A stretch of DNA of 40,769 nucleotides from a virus. Where the stretch lies: positions 1 to 40,769 of IMG/VR virus record IMGVR_UViG_3300032006_002783; one strand, 5' to 3'. The position numbers were made by a program, and so were the translations under genes. Every line of letters begins with the position of its first letter. The stretch's first letter is position 1. Positions 1 through 23,064 of this stretch are shown piece by piece. The notes under the pieces are model-generated. The model ran no database searches. It was not told the DNA's origin and worked only from the letters and a program-made list of their open reading frames with translations.

Positions 1-1404
1 TCATCGCGAGGCCCGTCGCTTAGCAGGAAACCGGAAATCGCCGTTCACTGGTGATGCGCAGGACCTCCGCGAACGTGGTCCGACAGCCTTCACCGGCCTC
101 TCGACGAGCACGGTCGGGTCGGGCAACCCATCGCTCAGCATGTCAGCCCAGACCTGTGCGAGCTCGCGTCTCCGGGGCAGGTACGCAGCGCGGTTATACG
201 CACCTTCGACCTTTTCTTTCGGGACATGGGCAAGCATCAGGTCGATGATCTTGCGGTCATGATCCTTTCCATGCCGCTCTGCCCATTCGTTCATGATGGT
301 CGAGAAGGCGGCACGAAAGCCATGCGGGACATGGTGCCCGTGGTAGCCAGCGCGATTGAGCAGGTAACCGATTGCGTTCTCACTCATTGGCCGGTGCGTA
401 TGCCGGTTGCTCGGGAAGAGCAGTTCGCCGCTTCCAGTCAGCGGCCACAGCGCCTTGAGGACTGCGATGGCCTGCGGTGTGAGCGGCACGAGATGATCGC
501 CCTCGATCTCTTCCTTGCGGTCGAGGTCGCCCTTCATTCGGGCCGAAGGAATACGCCAGAGCGGCTGCGGGCCGTTCAGTTCTTCAAACTCGTCCCAGCG
601 CGCGCCACGAAGCTCGCTTGGCCGCACCGCCGTCAGTGCGAGAAAGCGAAGCGCCAGACGCGTAACGGGGCGGGCATAATCCTCCTCCGCTGCGATGATC
701 ATCTTTCGGAGCGGTACAAGGTCCGTGATGGCTGGCTGCCGTCCCTTGCGAAGCGGCTTGAGGGCCGCTCCGAGCTTCTCGGCCGGATCGTCCTTCGTAA
801 TGCCCTCCGCAATGGCGTAGACGAAAACGGCGGAGATCCTCTGCCGGATGCGTTTCGCCGTCTCGATCGACCCACGGGCCTCGACCTCACGCAGCACGCC
901 CATGACAAGCGGTGGCGTCAGTTGCGCGATCGGTAGCACGCCGATCGCCGGGAAGACGTCTCGCTCGAGGCTGCGGATAATGTCAGCCGCATGGATCGCG
1001 GCCCATTGCGACTTCGCATTCTCATACCATTGCCTGGCGACCCGCTCGAACGTCTGGCGACTGGCCTCCAAATTTGCCTCGATCTTGAGCTTCTTGACGA
1101 CCGCCGGGTCGTGGCCGTCGCAAAGCATGGCGTAGGCCTCGTCGCGCTTTGCCCGTGCGTCGAGAAGGCTGACCATGGGATAGATCCCGAAGTTCATGCT
1201 CTTCTGCTTGCCGTCGTAGGCGTAGTTCCAGCGCCATAGCTTTCCACCGCCGGGTTTCACCTCGAGGTACAGCCGGTGGCTGTCCGTCAGCTTGTAAGCC
1301 TTGTCCCGCGGCTTCGCGCCGCGCAGTTTCGCATCATTCAGTGTGACGCGACAGTAATTACCGGCCCTGCTGGGAGCCGGGATATACCGGGCCAAACGCA
1401 CCAC
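1..1404 (-). CDS. int: P4-type tyrosine site-specific integrase (5' end uncertain)
   Basis: This is a tyrosine recombinase of the P4 integrase family, which inserts and excises genomic islands or phages at tRNA-type sites. The N-terminal DUF4102-like arm-binding domain begins at the residues LNDAKLRGAKPRDKAYKL. The catalytic domain shows the first Arg in TAVRPSELRGARW, the HGFR box, and a His followed by the nucleophile Tyr in EGAYNRAAYLP. The C-terminus runs to the window edge with a stop codon. The 5' end is odd: the codon where family members start is GTC (1345-1347), and there is no ATG nearby. The nearest in-frame starts are GTG at 1404 and 1401 and TTG at 1395, none with a clear ribosome binding site. 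The frame stays open to 1689, but that upstream stretch does not look like protein. The gene may belong to the host or to an older island rather than to the Mu-like phage. Confidence 0.85.
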   Translation of the reverse strand: MVRLARYIPAPSRAGNYCRVTLNDAKLRGAKPRDKAYKLTDSHRLYLEVKPGGGKLWRWNYAYDGKQKSMNFGIYPMVSLLDARAKRDEAYAMLCDGHDPAVVKKLKIEANLEASRQTFERVARQWYENAKSQWAAIHAADIIRSLERDVFPAIGVLPIAQLTPPLVMGVLREVEARGSIETAKRIRQRISAVFVYAIAEGITKDDPAEKLGAALKPLRKGRQPAITDLVPLRKMIIAAEEDYARPVTRLALRFLALTAVRPSELRGARWDEFEELNGPQPLWRIPSARMKGDLDRKEEIEGDHLVPLTPQAIAVLKALWPLTGSGELLFPSNRHTHRPMSENAIGYLLNRAGYHGHHVPHGFRAAFSTIMNEWAERHGKDHDRKIIDLMLAHVPKEKVEGAYNRAAYLPRRRELAQVWADMLSDGLPDPTVLVERPVKAVGPRSRRSCASPVNGDFRFPAKRRASR

Positions 1405-1547
1405 ATATCGGGATGAACGCCCAGAAAAACGGGCCTTTCGGCACTTTCGGAGCGCGCGGGTAGGCGTTCCGGAATTATTGTCGCGTTCCGAAGAAAAAGC
1501 GGCCCTGCGCGGCTGGTGGCGGCCCGAAAAACGGCGGAAATGCGTGG

Positions 1548-1679
1548 CCAGTTCCGACTTAACCGACAATCCAGTTCCGACTTTCCCAAAAGGCCCGATT
1601 TCCGGGCGTTTCAGGGCGCTGTCGCACGGCGGAATCCCGATTGTAACTCGGAACTGGCGGGCCGCTAAGTCGGAACTGG
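1548..1679. repeat. Four-copy CCAGTTCCGA(C/G)TT site array in inverted pairs
   Basis: Two copies point right (1548-1561 and 1571-1583) and two point left (1645-1657 and 1666-1679). The outer pair is a perfect 14-base inverted repeat. Copies within a pair are 22-23 bases apart, about two helical turns, the spacing of MuA sites R1/R2 or of iterons. Two weaker GCGTTCC copies lie at 1464 and 1483. The array sits between the end of the late leftward operon and the integrase gene. Candidate roles are transposase end-binding sites or binding sites for another regulator. The repeat is seen directly; the role is inference. Confidence 0.6.
1590..1611 (-). terminator. Intrinsic terminator after the leftward operon
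   Basis: GCCCG (1593-1597) and CGGGC (1603-1607) form a short GC stem with a five-base loop. On the minus strand the stem is followed by CTTTT. It lies about 80 bases past the stop of the adenine methylase gene, at the end of the leftward arm, and inside the inverted site array. A short T run also follows on the plus strand, so it may act both ways. Confidence 0.5.
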
Positions 1680-1688
1680 AAATGGGCA

Positions 1689-2522
1689 CTACATCCCGCC
1701 CGTGATGATCAGTTCGCCGGCTGCCTTGGCGTTGTTCTTGGCATCGAGCGTGTACGTCGTGCGGACAGCTTCAATGGCGAAGCCGGAAAAGATGTCTCGC
1801 ACTTCCGGCCGGTCATTCAGGCTTAGGATGAAACGGCCCTGCAGGCGCGCCAGCCTATCGGCCATCACGGCGAATTCGTCACGGCAGAACATGCCTCGGC
1901 CGTAGTCGTTCTCCGATCCGTAGTAGGGCGGATCAAGGTAGAACAGCGTACCCGGCCGGTCGTACCTATCGATGAACGCGGCCCATAGCATACGCTCGAT
2001 CACCACACCGGCCATCCGGTCGTGGACCGCTTCCAGCAGGGGCACGAGCTTGGTCACGTCGAAACTCGCGGGCCGACCAACCGAAACGCCGAAGTTGCGG
2101 TCGGCGACCTTGCCGGCAAACGCCAACCGCTGAAGGTAGAGGAACCGGGCCGCCCGCTCCAGATCAGTAAGCGAGGCGGGCTCCAGCGCAGCGAGCTTTT
2201 CAAACGCCGCGCGGCTGGTGACCTGATAGCGGAGCATGTCCACGAACGCGACATAGTGCCGCTGCAGCACGCGGAAGAAGGTGGAAACGTCTTCCGACCA
2301 GTCGTTGATCACCTCGACGCGCGGGCGAGCGGTGCGGCGCAGGAACACGCCGCCCATTCCGACAAAGACTTCGGCATAGGTGGTGTGCGGCACCGCCGCG
2401 ATACGTTCGACCAGGCGCCGCGCGAGGTTGCGCTTGCCGCCGAGGTAGCCAGCCGCAGGCCGGACGGGAGACACGGGTTGCAAGGGCGATGAAACGGCAT
2501 TTTCGCCGCCTTGCAGGGGCAT
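1689..2522 (-). CDS. DNA adenine (N6) methyltransferase, D12 class
   Basis: Predicted to transfer a methyl group from SAM to adenine N6. From ATG 2522 the protein has 277 residues, usual for Dam-type enzymes. Motif I (AGYLGGKRNL, residues 24-33) binds SAM, and the catalytic DPPY motif is at residues 197-200. It is the last gene of the leftward arm and follows F after a gap of about 300 bases (2523-2820). That gap holds GC-rich hairpins and no gene I can support, although this frame stays open through it; a GTG at 2546 with GAGA upstream is an alternative start. Such phage methylases usually protect DNA from restriction or alter promoter control. The position at the operon end and next to the site array suggests an acquired cargo gene. 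Confidence 0.88.
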   Translation of the reverse strand: MPLQGGENAVSSPLQPVSPVRPAAGYLGGKRNLARRLVERIAAVPHTTYAEVFVGMGGVFLRRTARPRVEVINDWSEDVSTFFRVLQRHYVAFVDMLRYQVTSRAAFEKLAALEPASLTDLERAARFLYLQRLAFAGKVADRNFGVSVGRPASFDVTKLVPLLEAVHDRMAGVVIERMLWAAFIDRYDRPGTLFYLDPPYYGSENDYGRGMFCRDEFAVMADRLARLQGRFILSLNDRPEVRDIFSGFAIEAVRTTYTLDAKNNAKAAGELIITGGM

Positions 2523-2820: not shown

Positions 2821-4029
2821 TCAGCGCCGGTCAACGATAATCTCCGTTCCCTTCAGCAGGCGCGGCAAGCTGGCGTCGTTCTGTTCACGGACGCTGGTAA
2901 CGAACAGCCCTTCCCCGCTGGCCGTGCGCTTGACGACCGCGACGGTCCAGCGCCCGTCCGCCGCCCGCGCGAAGATCAGCACGTTGTCACCATCGCGGGC
3001 GACGATGTCGGCATGTTCGACCATATCAGGCAGGCGGCGATAGACCGCGACCGGAAGGGCAGCGCGCTTTTCGACCTGCTTGGCGACCGTCTCCGGCGAC
3101 AGCACCGCGACGCGCACTTTCGCGCCCAGGACATCGCGCAGCCGATCGTCGAGGATCATGACCGGAAACCCCGGATCAGGCAGGGCAAGGAACTGCTCAA
3201 AGGCAGCGTCGGCAACGATTTCCTGCAAGGTCTGCCGCGCGGCCTGGTCAAGCCCGACATCGAGCGCCTGCTGGATCGAATTGGCCGCTTTCGCTGCCGC
3301 CGCCTTCAGATGCGCGGTGCCTGGATTGTAGCTGAAGCCGGGATCGATGCCGTCGGGCACCATGATCGGATCGCCAACGGCCGGAATGAACCGCTGCGGC
3401 GGCCCACCTGCAATCTGATCCTCGGGCGTGATCGACCAGCCCTTACGGTCCATCTCCCGCTGGGAAATCTGGCGGTAGTTGCACTTACAGCCCCAGCCGT
3501 TGGGCGGGAAATGGGTCTGCCACCACGGATGATCGACCGGCAACGTGACGCCGTACCAGAGCTTGTGCAGCGGGCGCTTGTGTTCCGACGTCGAGGCCAG
3601 ATAGCGCAGGAAGGGCAGCACGTCCTTTTGCCGCTGGACGCGGAGCCAGTTGCCTGTGGCGAGGCTCATGCGCACGTTGGTATCGTAGATCGTGCGCAGG
3701 CGGCGTTCGTTGATGATGACCGTTTTGTCGGTGCCGGTCAGATCGCGATTGTTGACGGCGCCCCACCAGCCCTGTCGCTTCAGTTCCGGCAGGATGGTGG
3801 CCTTCCATTGCTCGAACGTGCCGCCCTTCCGGATCACCTCGTCCAGAGACGACTGGATATAGCGCAGCAGGTCCAGCTTGGTGATCTTCGCCACCGTGAA
3901 CGCGACCGCGTGCTGCTCGTGCCGCATTTCCGACCAGCGCACGGTAGGCTGCAGCTGGCCGCGTGCCTCCCACGCGCGAACGGTGTCCACGGGATCGAGG
4001 AAGATGGAATAGCCGAGGCTGTCAGCCAT
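2821..4029 (-). CDS. Mu F-like minor head protein with C-terminal PBECR-like domain
   Basis: Equivalent of Mu gp30 (F), a minor capsid protein near the portal that helps head assembly and DNA ejection. ATG 4029 gives 402 residues and overlaps the preceding stop by 8 bases. The phage-head-morphogenesis domain occupies about residues 50-200 and includes NERRLRTIYDTNVR and the Cys-containing PPNGWGCKC (175-183) typical of the family. Residues about 285-402 form a separate domain with conserved-looking VLSPETVAKQ, ending in VVKRT and LFVTSV blocks. This resembles the phage-Barnase-EndoU-ColicinE5/D-RelE (PBECR) nuclease-like domains often found on this protein. The head-protein call is firm; the nuclease-like label is tentative. 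Confidence 0.87.
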   Translation of the reverse strand: MADSLGYSIFLDPVDTVRAWEARGQLQPTVRWSEMRHEQHAVAFTVAKITKLDLLRYIQSSLDEVIRKGGTFEQWKATILPELKRQGWWGAVNNRDLTGTDKTVIINERRLRTIYDTNVRMSLATGNWLRVQRQKDVLPFLRYLASTSEHKRPLHKLWYGVTLPVDHPWWQTHFPPNGWGCKCNYRQISQREMDRKGWSITPEDQIAGGPPQRFIPAVGDPIMVPDGIDPGFSYNPGTAHLKAAAAKAANSIQQALDVGLDQAARQTLQEIVADAAFEQFLALPDPGFPVMILDDRLRDVLGAKVRVAVLSPETVAKQVEKRAALPVAVYRRLPDMVEHADIVARDGDNVLIFARAADGRWTVAVVKRTASGEGLFVTSVREQNDASLPRLLKGTEIIVDRR

Positions 4030-4600
4030 GGGCGAAACGCCAGAGAACGGGTTTCTGGTCGGGCGCGATGCGGTGGAGGCCGCGTGCCATCGGATGCTTC
4101 GGCGCGCCATTCTTCGTCTTGCCCCAGCACCAGAGGTGCGGCCACGGTTCTTCGCCGTCCTGAATGGCCTCGACGACGTGGTCGATCCACACCGGATCGC
4201 GCGCGATAGCACCCCAGCAAGCAAAAACCTTATCGGCTGACTTCGCGGCGGAAACGACGGCATCGACGTTCGCATCGCGGGCATCGCGCGCAGCCCAATT
4301 CAGGCCGGCGTCGATCTCCCGCACGATGCGATACACGTCGGCCGGATCGGCGGAGACGAACGGGTAGAGGTTGACCGCGACCAGGCCACCGAAACCGAAA
4401 AGCCGGCACCATTCGATCCACCACCGCGTGGTCATATCGTCGCGATCGGCGTCGGCATCGGCCGGGTTGTGGCCAATCATGCAGGCGATCGGCCCCGGCG
4501 CCCAGCGGCGGTGCAGTTCGACGCGGTTGCCGGCGACGAAGGTGGCAGCACGCTGCATCACCGGGTTGCCGAAAAGGTCTATGCCGTATGGATCAGCCAT
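4022..4600 (-). CDS. DUF1643 domain protein
   Basis: 192 residues from ATG 4600, with GGAAG upstream; ATG 4636 is an in-frame alternative. The protein matches the DUF1643 family pattern: a core reading ACMIGHNPADADADRDDMT, then FGGLVAVNLYPF, then VFACWGAI, and a C-terminal PHPMARGLHR-like block (seen as KHPMARGLHR). DUF1643 proteins occur in phages and mobile elements, and their biochemical role is not settled. The gene overlaps F by 8 bases and is the last member of an accessory cluster inserted between portal and F. It should be expressed late with them. Confidence 0.85.
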   Translation of the reverse strand: MADPYGIDLFGNPVMQRAATFVAGNRVELHRRWAPGPIACMIGHNPADADADRDDMTTRWWIEWCRLFGFGGLVAVNLYPFVSADPADVYRIVREIDAGLNWAARDARDANVDAVVSAAKSADKVFACWGAIARDPVWIDHVVEAIQDGEEPWPHLWCWGKTKNGAPKHPMARGLHRIAPDQKPVLWRFAHG

Positions 4601-6067: not shown

Positions 6068-6360
6068 CACAGACGCCCCCAGCTTGCGGCCACGGTTTCC
6101 ATCAGCGATGGCGCGGTCCGCAGATCGACGCGATCGGCGTTTGGCAGCGCCTTTCGCCGTCGTTCGTCATCGAGATGCGCGCGCACGGCCAGGCCGACCC
6201 GATTGAGCGCCGACCGCTGGACCGAATAACCAACGGTCAGGTAATCGGGCACGGAGCCGGCCGGGACCAGAATGCGCCCATCGGCCAGCACCTCCGCGCT
6301 TGCTATGATGCTTCGCTGCTTGTCCGACAGGCATGATGCGATCGTAGCAATGTCGCTCAT
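6067..6360 (-). CDS. Hypothetical protein, helical (97 aa)
   Basis: ATG 6360 overlaps the portal stop (ATGA), and its stop overlaps the methyltransferase start. The protein has LSDKQRSIIAS near the N-terminus and a VGLAVRAHLDDERRRK helix, the layout of a small phage winged-helix-like protein. No family can be named with confidence. It is the first gene of the cluster that separates portal from F. Confidence 0.6.
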   Translation of the reverse strand: MSDIATIASCLSDKQRSIIASAEVLADGRILVPAGSVPDYLTVGYSVQRSALNRVGLAVRAHLDDERRRKALPNADRVDLRTAPSLMETVAASWGRL

Positions 6361-8414
6361 TGGTCACTCTCCGTCGGTGCGGGTTGGGCCGCCGCGTCGA
6401 GCTGGGCGGCGAAGCCGGCGCGGTTCAGCGCCTGCATGAGCGGCGTTTCGTCCATCGTGCCCAAGGCACTGGCGAGCAGCGCGCGGGCTTCTGCCTCGCT
6501 GGTGGCGGCCATGATCCGTTCGACGAGCGTGCCGGTCATCGCATTGGCGACGCGGTAGCCGTCCTCTGCGATCATGCGGTCAACGACGCTATCCACATCG
6601 TCATGCGCGCTGGCGGACGGCGACGGTTCGGCGAAGCTGGCTGGAGCCAGTTCGGTGACACCATCATGCCAATCGCTCTGGATCGGCTCGAACCGTTCCG
6701 GCCCGAAGACAAGCCGGCCCTGATAGGCCTGCACCTTCGACAGATCGAGATCGCCGGCTTCGTAGGTCAACGTCACATGCGGGAGGAAGCTGGGATAATC
6801 CCAGCTCGCGCCGGCATCGACCATTTCGCGGTGGCGCCACTGCAATTCCCCGGACTGGAAGATCAGCGCGACCGCGCCATCGGTGCCGAGGCGTTCGACC
6901 AGGCGCGGCCCGCCCGGAGGCACGATCAGCTCGCCGGCATACGATCCCCATTCGCCCATCTTGAACCAGTTGACCGGGCGCTTGGAGTACATGACGGTGA
7001 CGTGCAGCTGATCGGCCGGAACCGTGGACGCGAAACCCTGCTCCTTTGCCCAATCCAGCACTTCGCTGGCGTTGAGCAGCGCACGCGAGACATATAGCGG
7101 GCGCGGATCGTCGGCCGCGAAGCTGGCGACCTGGCGCTTGCCCGGCGCGCGCTTGGCGCCATCGGCGGGCACGGCTGCCGGATCGATGGGCGGGACAGCG
7201 GTCGGCGGCGGTACGGGCGGCATCGATCCCGACGGCGCTTCCGGATCGTCCTTGCGGACATAGCCTTCCCCGTAAGTGTCGGCGAAGCTGGCCTTGGTGC
7301 GGACCCAGCCCAGCGCTGCGAGGCTGGTATCCGTTTCCGCGTTCGCCTTGGCGTCTTCCTCTTCCTCCACGATCCGACGCACGATCGGCGCGGCGACATC
7401 GGGGCCGAAGTTGAAATCAGTCCACCACCGCGCCGGGCCATCGGTGAAACTGTCGGTCAGTTCGTCCGCATCGGACTTGATGACTTCCAGCTTCACATCC
7501 GCGTGGACCTGCCCCTGCGCGCGCGACGATCCGTTGTCGGTCGTCATGGTCTGCGACAGCACAACCTTGGAGATGGCGCCGTCCATGTAGGCGCAGAGCT
7601 GATGGAAATCGGCCGTGCCGGATTTCGCCGCCGTCAGCAGTTCGACGGCCATTCCCTCGGGCACAACAAATCCGCTGTCGGTAGCGATGGCCTGAAGCGC
7701 CTGGAGCAGCTTGTTGACCTGTTCCGGGCTGGTCGACTGCGGATAAGTGCCCTTCGCGGTCGGTGTGCCGAACTTGTCGAGGAAGATGTTCCAGAAGCGG
7801 ATGCCGTTGCGCTTGAACAGCGTGGGCCAATAGAGCCAATGCGCCAGCCCGAGGCCGTAGGGGCTGTCATCGTCCGGCGCGCCGACGGCGTGAACCCAGA
7901 ACTTGCGTTCGGGCATGATCTCGCCCTGCATGTTGCCGGGCACCAGCATCCGCAGGTTGTCCTGATCATCGTAGCGGAAGCGGCGCGCGTGGCGGACCTT
8001 GATGCCCACGAAATCAAAGAGGCCGTCGCGGTAGCCCCACATCATCTCGGCGACCGAGTAGCCGTAGAACGAGCCCATCAGCATCTTGCCGGTGGTCCGG
8101 TCCCACTTCAGGCGCTTGACAGTCTTGTCGAACGCCTCGGCCGCAGCAACGGAACGCGGATCGCTTTCGTCGCCGGGGATCGTGTTCCAGTCGCGCGCGA
8201 CGACGGCGCCGATCCGCTGCTGCAAGGTCGATTTGACCTGATCGTCGTTCAGCACGACATCGTAGGCGCCCCAATCGACCGCCATCGACAGCTTGGGATC
8301 GCGCGCCTCGCGCAGACCGCGCACCCATGGCTGGGTGATGTCGCGCCCGTCGCGGGTTGTCGCGATCTCTCCCAGCAGAGCCGGTTGCGGCTTGGGGATG
8401 GTTGCGTCTGCCAT
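6357..8414 (-). CDS. DUF935 portal protein fused to Acb1-like 2H phosphoesterase domain
   Basis: 685 residues from ATG 8414. Residues about 15-380 are a Mu gp29-type (DUF935) portal: the dodecameric vertex ring through which DNA is packaged and ejected (blocks WNTIPGDESDPRS, WDRTTGKMLMGSFYGYS, KFGTPTAKGTYP). A proline-rich linker (about 390-430) follows. Residues about 438-590 form a 2H phosphoesterase with both HxT motifs, H471-V-T473 and H546-V-T548. It also has the GGPR, RHRE and GASWDYP blocks typical of the Acb1-like C-terminal domain. T4 Acb1 degrades the cyclic nucleotide signals of CBASS. A helical tail of about 85 residues ends the protein. Mu gp29 itself lacks the 2H domain. The domain calls are firm; cyclic nucleotide cleavage here is inference. 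Confidence 0.9.
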   Translation of the reverse strand: MADATIPKPQPALLGEIATTRDGRDITQPWVRGLREARDPKLSMAVDWGAYDVVLNDDQVKSTLQQRIGAVVARDWNTIPGDESDPRSVAAAEAFDKTVKRLKWDRTTGKMLMGSFYGYSVAEMMWGYRDGLFDFVGIKVRHARRFRYDDQDNLRMLVPGNMQGEIMPERKFWVHAVGAPDDDSPYGLGLAHWLYWPTLFKRNGIRFWNIFLDKFGTPTAKGTYPQSTSPEQVNKLLQALQAIATDSGFVVPEGMAVELLTAAKSGTADFHQLCAYMDGAISKVVLSQTMTTDNGSSRAQGQVHADVKLEVIKSDADELTDSFTDGPARWWTDFNFGPDVAAPIVRRIVEEEEDAKANAETDTSLAALGWVRTKASFADTYGEGYVRKDDPEAPSGSMPPVPPPTAVPPIDPAAVPADGAKRAPGKRQVASFAADDPRPLYVSRALLNASEVLDWAKEQGFASTVPADQLHVTVMYSKRPVNWFKMGEWGSYAGELIVPPGGPRLVERLGTDGAVALIFQSGELQWRHREMVDAGASWDYPSFLPHVTLTYEAGDLDLSKVQAYQGRLVFGPERFEPIQSDWHDGVTELAPASFAEPSPSASAHDDVDSVVDRMIAEDGYRVANAMTGTLVERIMAATSEAEARALLASALGTMDETPLMQALNRAGFAAQLDAAAQPAPTESDQ

Positions 8415-16105: not shown

Positions 16106-16876
16106 TCAGGCCGCCTTGCGCGTGATCACGTCGCCGGTGCGGACCGGACGATCGCCCCACCACGCGACATCGACATGGTCCGCGCCCTCTTCGGCCGCGA
16201 GCTTCTGCGCGTGCTGAAGGTTGTTGACGATGCGGCGTGTGACGCCCCGGCAGCGCACCCGGAACAGTTCGGTAAGATCGTCCGCGATGCGGATGCGGTG
16301 GCAGTAGTGATCGCGCAGCTTGATCGCATCGTCCTGCGACGCGGGCAGCGCGGCCGTGGTGGAGACGATGCGGTTGTCGAACCGCTCCCATGCCTTCAGC
16401 TTCGCTGGCAGCGCCTCTTCGCCGATCATCAGGATGGCGATGTTCGTGCCGTCGTGAATGTCGCGCAGGGTGTTAACCAGCCCCTTGTTCGCGAGGTAAT
16501 CCATCTCGTCCACGATCAGATCGACAGGCTGACGGTTGAGCTGTTCGATGATCTGGCGGAGCAAGTCCGCCGCCACGCGCTTGGGTCGGGCGATGCCGAG
16601 TTCGGCCGCCAGCACGTCCAGCAGCGTCTTGCGGGTCCACAGTTCCTGCGCCTGGATATAGGCAGCGCCGGTCCGCGCCGCGCTGAAGGCGGCGGCGACC
16701 GTCTTCCCGTAGCCGCTGAAGCCGTGGAAGATGCCCATGCGCGCGGACGGATTGTCGCTTTCGCGGCAGTCGATCAGCGTCTTGAGGCACAGCGCCATGT
16801 TGGTGAGCTGCGCCTGCCCCTGCCCCGGCGAATGATCGCCGAAATCAAGAGTGGGCTGGTTGGCAAGATCATGCAT
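16106..16876 (-). CDS. MuB-type AAA+ ATPase, transposition target selector
   Basis: From ATG 16876 (256 residues; ACGGAGAAC upstream). ATG 16927, which overlaps the transposase stop as ATGA, is an alternative start. Walker A GFSGYGKT is at residues 52-59 and Walker B LIVDEMDYL at 120-128. MuB-type ATPases coat target DNA, deliver it to transposase, and give target immunity. This one lacks the N-terminal helix-turn-helix of Mu MuB and is shorter, resembling the AAA_22 ATPases of B3/D3112-like phages. It pairs with transposase A directly upstream. Confidence 0.88.
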   Translation of the reverse strand: MHDLANQPTLDFGDHSPGQGQAQLTNMALCLKTLIDCRESDNPSARMGIFHGFSGYGKTVAAAFSAARTGAAYIQAQELWTRKTLLDVLAAELGIARPKRVAADLLRQIIEQLNRQPVDLIVDEMDYLANKGLVNTLRDIHDGTNIAILMIGEEALPAKLKAWERFDNRIVSTTAALPASQDDAIKLRDHYCHRIRIADDLTELFRVRCRGVTRRIVNNLQHAQKLAAEEGADHVDVAWWGDRPVRTGDVITRKAA

Positions 16877-16926
16877 CGGCGGTTCTCCGTGGTTGAAGGC
16901 AGGGTGAAAGGGTGTTTCGGGGCGCA

Positions 16927-18741
16927 TCAGGCGGCGCCCTGCTGGCGGCGCGGCGCGGCAGGGCCGGCGCGCTGGAAATCGACGAAGGTCATCTTGTGCG
17001 CGCGGTATTCGCTGGTGCCCGCGTAGAGCTGCGCCCGGCGCAGTGCGTCCGGCTCCACCGCTTCCCCGCGCTTGTCCGCGGCGATGACCGCATCGGCTTC
17101 GGCGACCTTCTGTTCGACCGTGCGGGCCGGTGCCGCGACCTGTTCAGTGCGACGCATGACAGCATCGAGCTGGGCGCGATCGACCGGCGCTTCCGGCGTG
17201 GCCGCGATGCTGGCGATGGCCGGGGTGACGTGGCGCACGGTGGGCGGCGGCAGATGCGCCAGCTTGCCCGCCGCTTCGGCTTCGGCGCGCAGCAGCTCGT
17301 CGCGCGCGGTGTCATAGCTGTAGAGCCGTTGCTTGGCGCGCAGTTCCGCCTTGGCCGCGTTCATGTGCGCCTGCATCTGGTTGCGGGCCGCCATGGCGAA
17401 CTGCTGTTCGGTCATGCCGGACCGGCCGACATCGACGGCCGTGTCGATGTAGTTGCCTTCGCCATCGAACAGGAACAGCGCGCCGAGATCGTCCTCGTCA
17501 CGGCGGACATGGACCGGCTTGCCCATCCATTCGACCAGACGCGGCGACCAGTAACGCCCGCCTTTCCAGCGCACGCCGCGCTTACCGACGGTGGCCGTGC
17601 CGACATAGGCCGAGAGGGCCAGCTTCAGCTCGCGTTCGCCCGGCGCGGCGCGCGCCGGCTGCGGGCTGCGTTGCCACCGTTCCATCGGCGACATCTTCAG
17701 GCTGGAGTGCGTGCGCTGATGGTATTCGCCATCGACCCACGCATCGAGAATGGTCTGCAGCTCGGCACCGCTGATGCTGGCGGTGATCTCGGCGCGGCCG
17801 GTCTTCTTCTTGGCCTTGGCGCGCAGCTTCTGCGCCTGCGCGACGTTATGCCCGGCGAAGCCCGGCAGAAGGGCCGCGCGTTCGCGCATGAACGTGCCAA
17901 AGAGGCGTTCGATGTGCGGCTTGTCTTCCGGCGTGCCCGGCAGGCAGGGATCGAGTGTGATGCCCAGCAGATCGAGCGCGGTGCCGATCGAGGCGTTGAT
18001 GAAGCCCGAGCCGTTATCGACCTTCAGCACTTCGGGCATGACGCCCCACGCCGCGATCGTGGTGACCAGCATGCGCCGGACCGACTGCGCGCTTTCTGAC
18101 GTGACAACGAGGAAACGGGCGCGGCGGCTCCAGCGATCGATTATGCCCAGCACCGACCAGCGGCCATCGGTGCAGTGCACGTCGGCCTTTGTGGTATCGA
18201 TCTCCCACATTTCGTGGGCGTAACCGACGGTGGCATCCATACGGCCGAGCGCGGGGCGATAGGACGACTTGTAACCATCCGGATCGCGCAAGGCGGTGAA
18301 GAGGACTTTCTGGCGATCCTCCAGATCGCGCATGAAACGCTGGAGCGTCTTGGGGTGTGGCAATTCACCGAAATTGAATGCGCGCAACAACAGCAGCACC
18401 GTTGCGACCGGCCGGCGCTGTTCGGCAATCATCGCTTCCACAGCGTCCGCGACGTCTGGATGACGGTCGAACCAGCCCGTTCCCTTCGGCCGGCCACGCG
18501 CGGCGGCGGAAGCCCTGACGGCATCGGTCTGCCGCGAAACGAAATCATCGCGGGCGGCATCAGGCAGCGCCAGCGCGCAGTAGGCCCGTCCGCCGCCGAG
18601 ATCGGCGCGACGCTTCCACTGCCACGCCTCGGCTTCGGCCCGCTTGCGGACGCCGCGTTCGGTGGTCGGCAGGCCGGCAAGGCGCAGGTCCGCGATCTCG
18701 CGCGCGGTAAGCCAGATGGCATCAGGCACGGCGGCGCTCAT
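16927..18741 (-). CDS. Mu-type DDE transposase A
   Basis: 604 residues from ATG 18741, overlapping the previous stop (ATGA). The N-terminal Mu DNA-binding winged helix is clear: IWLTAREIADLRLAGLP, followed by GVRKRAEAEAWQWKRR. The rve-type catalytic core has D182 (WEIDTTKADV), D242 (KVDNGSGF) and E278 (DKPHIERLFGT), a DD35E arrangement. The Mu-transposase C-terminal beta-barrel follows (about 390-480, RGVRWKGGRYWSPRL), then a basic/Ala-rich tail for ATPase contact. This enzyme joins phage ends to target DNA for integration and replicative transposition. Confidence 0.94.
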   Translation of the reverse strand: MSAAVPDAIWLTAREIADLRLAGLPTTERGVRKRAEAEAWQWKRRADLGGGRAYCALALPDAARDDFVSRQTDAVRASAAARGRPKGTGWFDRHPDVADAVEAMIAEQRRPVATVLLLLRAFNFGELPHPKTLQRFMRDLEDRQKVLFTALRDPDGYKSSYRPALGRMDATVGYAHEMWEIDTTKADVHCTDGRWSVLGIIDRWSRRARFLVVTSESAQSVRRMLVTTIAAWGVMPEVLKVDNGSGFINASIGTALDLLGITLDPCLPGTPEDKPHIERLFGTFMRERAALLPGFAGHNVAQAQKLRAKAKKKTGRAEITASISGAELQTILDAWVDGEYHQRTHSSLKMSPMERWQRSPQPARAAPGERELKLALSAYVGTATVGKRGVRWKGGRYWSPRLVEWMGKPVHVRRDEDDLGALFLFDGEGNYIDTAVDVGRSGMTEQQFAMAARNQMQAHMNAAKAELRAKQRLYSYDTARDELLRAEAEAAGKLAHLPPPTVRHVTPAIASIAATPEAPVDRAQLDAVMRRTEQVAAPARTVEQKVAEADAVIAADKRGEAVEPDALRRAQLYAGTSEYRAHKMTFVDFQRAGPAAPRRQQGAA

Positions 18742-19121
18742 TCGGCACCGCTCTGCTTCAGTGCGCGGGCAAGCCGCTCGGCCTCGGTGCGGCCCAGCAT
18801 GCGGCCGGGCGGGGGAAAGGAAACCGCAATGCCCTGCGCCTGCAACAGCCTTGCAAGCTCGCCGCTGGCGATGCTGTTGTCTGGCAGGATAACCGGTTCG
18901 TCGCCTTTGTTGACCCGTTCCGACGCAAGGCGAACATTCGCGGTACAAATGGCGCGTGGCCGCATGTATAGAGCGCGCATGAGAGTCGCGGCCCACCAGT
19001 CCACCAGTTCGCACGAGGCGGCCTTCCAGCGCGCCCAGGGCGTGGGCGTGGGAAAGAAGGCATATTCGTCGATGATGATGGTGCCGCGTTTCCCGAGCAG
19101 GGGGGCGTGGGGATCAGGCAC
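18738..19121 (-). CDS. Hypothetical early protein between ner and A (127 aa)
   Basis: Starts at GTG 19121, overlapping the previous gene by 8 bases; ATG starts further upstream would overlap much more. It has a central TIIIDEYAFFP segment, a Trp-rich helix (CELVDWWAATLMRALYMR), and ends ARALKQSGAE. The IIIDEY string looks like a Walker B motif, but no P-loop is present. No family recognised. In Mu, ner and A are neighbours. Confidence 0.65.
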   Translation of the reverse strand: MPDPHAPLLGKRGTIIIDEYAFFPTPTPWARWKAASCELVDWWAATLMRALYMRPRAICTANVRLASERVNKGDEPVILPDNSIASGELARLLQAQGIAVSFPPPGRMLGRTEAERLARALKQSGAE

Positions 19122-22098: not shown

Positions 22099-23064
22099 AT
22101 GGATCAGACGAAACCCCGCACTATCCGCATTGCCCGCACCGGCACGTTCACCAGCAACGAAGGCATTGAGGTCTCGTTCGGCGCCGCCGAGCTGGAGGCT
22201 GCCGCTGCTGCCTACGATCCCGCCATCGATCCGGCGCCGCTGGTGGTCGGCCATCCCAAGCTGGACCATCCGGCCTATGGCTGGGTGAGCGGCCTTGCCG
22301 TGGACGGCGACAGACTGGTCGCTACGCCTGACAAGGTGGAGCCGGCCTTTGCCGAGATGGTGAATGCCGGTCGTTTCCCGAAGGTTTCCGCGCGGTTCTA
22401 CCCGCCCGAGCATCCGGCCAACCCCAAGCCCGGCGCCTGGTATCTCAAGCACATCGGTTTCCTTGGCGCACATGCGCCGGGGATCAAGGGGCTTGGCACC
22501 GTGCAGTTCGCCGACGGCGCGGACGAAGGCGCGGTGACGCTGGATTTTTCATCCCACGAACAGGAGGCCACTTTGGCTGACAAGGAAAAGGAAGTGAGCT
22601 TCGCCGAGCGCGAGGCCGCGTTGAATGAGCGCGAGGCCAAAGTCGCGGCCCGCGAAAAGGCCGATGCCGAAAAGGCGGCCAAGGCCCGGCACGAGGCGCA
22701 TGTGTCGTTTGCCGAGGGGCTGGTGTCGAAGGCGCTGCTGGCACCGGCCGGCAAGGGCCTGGTCGTGGGCCTGCTCGACCATTTCGACGCCACGGCGATG
22801 GTGAGCTTTGGCGAAGCGGGCGAGATGGCCCCAGCCGACGCCTTCCGCAAGCTGTTCGACGGCGCCACGCCACTGGTCAGCTTCGGCGAGCATGGCAAGA
22901 AGCCCGAGGAACAGAAGACCTACGTCAGCTTCGCCGCGCCGGCCGGCTACGATGTCGATCCCGAAGCCGCCGCACTCCACGCCGCCGCGACCGCGATCCA
23001 GCAGGCCAATCCCGAGCTGGACTGGATCGCCTGCGTCAAGCGCGCCCAGGCGCAGGGTTCCTGA
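22099..23064 (+). CDS. Mu I-type prohead protease with scaffold region
   Basis: 321 residues. Residues 1-150 carry the Mu I-like peptidase pattern: PLVVGHPKLDHPAYGWVSGL, PAFAEMVNAGRFPKVSARFY, LKHIGFLGAHAPGIKGL. A long charged coiled coil (about 155-205, with REAALNEREAKVAAREKADAE) follows, as in proteins that serve as both protease and internal scaffold. It is the first gene of the rightward arm. The protease processes head proteins during maturation. Confidence 0.87.
   Translation: MDQTKPRTIRIARTGTFTSNEGIEVSFGAAELEAAAAAYDPAIDPAPLVVGHPKLDHPAYGWVSGLAVDGDRLVATPDKVEPAFAEMVNAGRFPKVSARFYPPEHPANPKPGAWYLKHIGFLGAHAPGIKGLGTVQFADGADEGAVTLDFSSHEQEATLADKEKEVSFAEREAALNEREAKVAAREKADAEKAAKARHEAHVSFAEGLVSKALLAPAGKGLVVGLLDHFDATAMVSFGEAGEMAPADAFRKLFDGATPLVSFGEHGKKPEEQKTYVSFAAPAGYDVDPEAAALHAAATAIQQANPELDWIACVKRAQAQGS

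Follow-up and report, generated by a model that had tools for sequence, protein, structure and literature searches.

Acb1, as described from phages T4 and FBB1 (PF23474; structures 7t26 and 7t27), is a free-standing anti-CBASS enzyme with a 2H fold and a HxT/HxT tetrad, the T4 enzyme being known to destroy alarm molecules of bacteria, and the roles of the T4 Acb1 residues that we refer to below are taken from the literature (PMC9117128). Acb1 domains also occur C-terminal to the core of phage portal proteins of the PF06381 (DUF1073) family, for instance in Pam3 (8hds), phiPSA1 and Rhizobium phages. Passages of a survey published in Viruses in 2022 report fusions of 2H domains with MuF or portal domains and propose that these are packaged, injected and then counter nucleotide-based immunity or signalling (PMC9503650). 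Judged by these passages, both the kind of fusion and the idea of its injection are therefore already published; the passages do not name the Acb1 family, a DUF935 architecture or protease sites, and our literature search for Acb1 or anti-CBASS in combination with a portal fusion found no paper. A further point of reference is the portal gp29 of phage Mu, a DUF935 protein whose last 124 residues are missing from its cryo-EM structure, a loss ascribed to protease I (PMC11915804).

The DNA analyzed here, the IMG/VR record IMGVR_UViG_3300032006_002783 (40,769 nucleotides, hereafter the window), stems from a Mu-like, transposable phage. An earlier note had claimed that its DUF935 portal carries an Acb1-like anti-CBASS enzyme which, being built into the portal, may be present in every particle. 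The first part of this interpretation stood, with an Acb1-family domain, its predicted fold, and its catalytic and adenine-contacting residues all retained; the second part, permanent residence in the portal, has become doubtful. New is the observation that the Acb1 domain is flanked by two [AV]SF[AG][AE] motifs that are otherwise found only in the protease/scaffold protein of the phage proteome.

An Acb1-type domain within a Mu-type portal protein

The portal gene (positions 6357 to 8414; it and all portal features below are on the minus strand) encodes a predicted portal-Acb1 polyprotein of 685 amino acids, as judged from its ORF, start and Pfam matches. Its ATG at 8414 comes directly after the TAA that ends the preceding gene. 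Pfam detects a Portal_Mu (DUF935, PF06074) core at residues 50 to 382 (7269 to 8267; E = 5.7e-98), and this profile match as well as the position of the gene behind those for the small and large terminase subunits identify a Mu-type portal. The Acb1 2H phosphoesterase domain occupies residues 439 to 584 (6663 to 7100; E = 3e-40), and its 138 bits against a cut-off of 27 settle the HMM search that the earlier note had suggested for residues 438 to 590, an interval that proved accurate within a few residues. PADLOC and NCBIfam searches with the portal gave no match. Core and domain are joined by a hypervariable linker 1 (residues 383 to 438; 7101 to 7268) that the structure model renders with low confidence (pLDDT under 50 at residues 393 to 437). 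The protein ends in a helical C-terminal tail (residues 597 to 685; 6360 to 6626), delineated by alignment and structure model and also present in the Acb1-less portals L170 and L171.

The AlphaFold model of the Acb1 domain reaches a mean pLDDT of 92, and its top fold matches in the PDB are two entries of FBB1 Acb1 (7t26: E = 9e-9, TM 0.72/0.83), followed by a Burkholderia phage phosphodiesterase and LigT from E. coli. The high-confidence prediction thus resembles the crystallized FBB1 Acb1 (7t26), and both HxT motifs lie within the Acb1-like fold. In a sequence search of the PDB, FBB1 Acb1 was recovered with an E-value of 2e-11, and the C-terminus of the Pam3 portal was nearer still (5e-33). 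Of all PDB chains, that of this portal (8hds) is closest in sequence, yet it is not among the best 50 fold matches of the domain, which hints that the Acb1 domain was not modelled in that structure. A structure model of the full-length window portal (pLDDT 56) is too poor for placing the Acb1 domain on the portal.

Alignment with T4 and FBB1 Acb1 equates H44 and T46 of the T4 enzyme with the first HxT motif (His471-Val-Thr473; 6996 to 7004), H113 and T115 with the second (His546-Val-Thr548; 6771 to 6779), and E141 and W147, at equal spacing, with Glu576 and Trp582 (6669 to 6689). Y12 corresponds to Tyr441 and F107 to Tyr540. Among the ligand-stacking aromatics, Y12 and W147 are kept and F107 is present as Tyr; the adenine contact E141 is kept as well, whereas the column of the stacking Trp74 holds Glu in the window and Glu or Asp in most other portal-borne copies. 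The HVT motifs, and likewise GGPR (residues 501 to 504) and GASWD (535 to 539), lie where the earlier note had put them. Across 22 distinct DUF935-Acb1 domains, Tyr12, Thr46, His113, Thr115 and Glu141 are invariant (22/22 each), Trp147 is kept in 21 and His44 in 20; the conservation of the His and Thr residues is biased by our search patterns, outside of which Tyr12, Glu141 and Trp147 lie. In L046 and L107, the first catalytic His is replaced by Asn and Tyr, respectively, and these two portals possibly represent inactive copies. Mean dN/dS values are about 0.29 for the Acb1 domain, 0.25 for the portal core and 0.62 for linker 1, with distant pairs near saturation; by this measure, purifying selection acts on the Acb1 domain about as it does on the portal core, and linker 1 is far less constrained. 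From its sequence, the domain is expected to be an Acb1-type, metal-independent 2H phosphodiesterase that cleaves the cyclic di- and trinucleotides of CBASS on the 3' side of adenosine.

Two other regions of the window deserve mention. A MuF-type head protein (2821 to 4284, minus strand) has a weak C-terminal match to the PBECR3 nuclease (E = 0.019, below the cut-off) and is perhaps a second head-borne effector. A tyrosine-integrase-like ORF (Phage_int; 1 to 1689, minus strand) at the end of the record, which also contains Mu-type transposition genes (16106 to 19014, minus strand), possibly belongs to a flank from the host or a neighbouring element.

Candidate protease sites on either side of the domain

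The window portal contains two [AV]SF[AG][AE] motifs, one on each side of the Acb1 domain: site 1 (ASFAA, residues 430 to 434; 7113 to 7127) and site 2 (ASFAE, residues 592 to 596; 6627 to 6641). Composition shuffles predict 0.010 occurrences in this protein. The head maturation protease/scaffold protein (phrog_976; 22099 to 23064, plus strand) harbors six, against an expectation of 0.015, at residues 25 (within the protease part), 166, 202, 235, 260 and 276, its repeats reading VSFAE, VSFGE and VSFAA; the 26 other counted ORFs of the window (8,812 amino acids) contain none. A related sequence that belongs to the end of the core, ASFADT at residues 375 to 380, departs from the motif and was left uncounted. 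Since the motif had been spotted in these sequences before it was counted, its strongest test comes from the relatives and from Mu, and not from the window itself.

In the alignment of DUF935-Acb1 portals, SFAADD stands directly N-terminal and SFAE directly C-terminal of the domain. With slightly relaxed patterns, both sites are found in 23 of the 24 Acb1 portals (window included), and a single site in 14 of the 15 Acb1-less portals; L072, the most divergent member, is without a recognizable second site. The frequency of [SE]F[AG][AE] per 1,000 amino acids is 0.18 in portal cores, 10.1 in protease/scaffold proteins and 10.5 in linkers. Across lineages, the version of the site that a portal carries covaries with the version in the scaffold (SFAE, EFAE, A[FL]AE; permutation below 1/5000, with kinship ignored). 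Mu gp29 and the B3-type portals belong to the same family but are without Acb1, and they possess one site in the wording of the local protease before the C-terminal tail (Mu, AALSAE at residue 427; B3, TEFAEG) where the window portal has two; ALSA is repeated in the Mu protease/scaffold protein. In L170 and L171, whose cores are 81 and 79% identical, the linker is followed directly by ASFAE, the counterpart of site 2, and the shared tail, and from these alignments the cassette looks like an SFAA-Acb1 unit inserted before an older site. Both motifs in the window portal are probable targets of the head protease that the phage itself encodes.

Fusions to DUF1073 portals, to which the earlier note had referred, are indeed common. 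They involve another portal family, and their Acb1 domain (about 33-59% identical) forms the end of the protein with no tail after it; inspection by eye of PF06381 phages found neither SFA-type sites nor comparable bracketing. Excision can consequently not be general among portal-Acb1 fusions. Separately, the DUF935 portals L230-L233, L236 and L237 carry an extra SFAE or SFAD near their N-terminus, and N-terminal processing is possible there.

Proposed excision from the portal and its alternatives

From the observed or computed features (domain identity, residues, predicted fold, motif distribution and insertion pattern) we infer a model for catalysis on CBASS signals, for cleavage, and for the place and time of action. 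Residues 1 to 382 would form an ordinary Mu-type portal subunit, and residues 433 to 594 an Acb1-type enzyme segment, the gene thus encoding a portal polyprotein. As the C-terminus of the portal ring faces the prohead interior, the Acb1 domain would be brought into the protease/scaffold compartment during head assembly; in JBD30, the procapsid encloses the portal crown, and the scaffold, once cleaved, is believed to exit through pores (PMC11445458). The head maturation protease would then cut [AV]SF[AG][AE] on either side of the domain and free an enzyme of about 18 kDa; cleavage behind Phe, an assumption about the exact bond, would give pieces of 47.4, 18.0 and 9.4 kDa. Acb1-less portals would, as is thought, receive one trim by the same type of protease. 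Once freed, the enzyme might exit together with the cleaved scaffold and act in the producer cell at a late stage, upon triggering of CBASS; alternatively, up to 12 copies might stay in the head and enter the next host with the DNA. The latter route would resemble that of T4 IPI and Alt, counter-defence or host-takeover proteins that are located in the head, processed by the head protease and ejected (PMC9026906). This likeness is one of working principle without homology, argued for the window from motifs, and the T4 proteins differ in being propeptide-targeted and present in 40-370 copies as opposed to the 12 of portal carriage.

We put the probability that the head protease excises an active anti-CBASS Acb1 enzyme from a portal polyprotein, followed by late release or carriage, at roughly 0.6, and excision in the prohead is the likeliest course because protease I of Mu is believed to shorten the Mu portal at its C-terminus. 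The model connects head assembly with immune evasion in testable form. If it is right, head maturation or injection would set the timing of anti-CBASS action, searches for counter-defence enzymes could target cassettes enclosed by head-protease sites, and a processing motif inferred for Mu-type head proteases (SFAE, EFAE, ALSA) would become available. The more specific proposal, that the cassette is freed in the prohead, injected with the genome and arms the next infection before CBASS signals, is a tentative one; should it be true, the portal would serve as a stoichiometric 12-copy vehicle for a cleavable counter-defence enzyme. Free Acb1 made from an internal translation start was considered and rejected, as no conserved start codon or ribosome site lies upstream of the domain.

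An active anti-CBASS enzyme could also do without excision: late in infection it might work in the cytoplasm as part of the portal, whether unassembled or in a ring, or it might remain fixed inside the head. In PF06381 and most PF04860 portals, the domain is C-terminal or nearly so and, given the lack of bracketing noted for PF06381 phages, it must be able to function while tethered; T4 Acb1 activity at about 15 min into infection, alongside late CBASS (PMC9117128), would suit late action of this kind. For the window, however, the two-site bracketing by a motif matching that of the scaffold, together with the absence of the equivalent region from the Mu portal structure, makes excision more likely than persistence in the portal, and we hold a permanently tethered enzyme to be unlikely. 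It appears somewhat less probable still that the domain is a 2H phosphodiesterase acting mainly on something else, for instance on damaged RNA ending in 2',3'-cyclic phosphates or on ADP-ribose cyclic phosphate. LigT and other 2H enzymes are among the weaker fold matches, and passages of the 2022 survey tie phage 2H domains to RNA repair as well (PMC9503650), but Acb1 is the closest family by both profile and fold, the equivalents of Glu141, Tyr12 and Trp147 are kept, and there is no RNA ligase or kinase among the annotated window genes (a subset of the ORFs). That the domain mainly serves structure or assembly, its chemistry being irrelevant, is very improbable: although it resides in a head protein and the catalytic His is lost in some relatives, the catalytic residues are otherwise conserved, and portals with 79-81% identical cores exist without the domain, which is hence dispensable for assembly.

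Distribution of Acb1 fusions and their hosts

Our domain scans covered IMG/VR and GTDB genomes, and the counts obtained are lower bounds. Portal-Acb1 fusions are a recurrent kind found on three portal families, with at least 97 distinct PF06381 portals, at least 22 distinct PF06074 portals in a first set (at least 31 Acb1-bearing rows, including the window, in a second) and at least 5 PF04860 portals. At least about 30 loci from IMG/VR or prophages contain the PF06074 version, but it is missing from the 50,697 records of named phages, none of which covers 80% of the window protein. The trees require at least two or three switches of portal type, and the Acb1 domain has thus moved between portal families; an independent origin of the L072 fusion, indicated by a first tree, was not upheld once long branches had been removed.

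The scans also recovered the domain outside of portals. At least three XkdF-type head proteases, another head-assembly protein, carry Acb1 at their N-terminal side (L003, L005 and L073, in the last of which the protease part was detected only with a home-made profile). In addition, Acb1 is found in a 2702-amino-acid polyvalent protein with SNase and LPD38 domains (L147, 2011 to 10116) and, combined with a Gp49/toxin-like domain, in a further ORF (L136, 5827 to 6888). An apparently separate Acb1 gene in Synechococcus phage Yong-M3-232 (OM868076.1) was rejected: this genome equals that of Ssp-JY40 (PP438430.1) except for a 127-base insertion (1467 to 1593) that repeats neighbouring sequence, splits the portal-Acb1 gene and is probably an assembly artefact.

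SMODS domains occur in 12 of 47 portal-Acb1 genomes compared with 17/150 and 18/151 in two background families (35/301 combined; p = 0.02 with taxa unmatched), a weak enrichment of CD-NTase genes. The nearest relative, with an Acb1 domain 79% identical, is a prophage of Sphingobium faniae, and this host possesses a CBASS locus that looks complete from its gene content, in which genes for a CD-NTase, TRIP13 and two effectors, one TIR and one exonuclease, adjoin each other (L271, 5094 to 9148).
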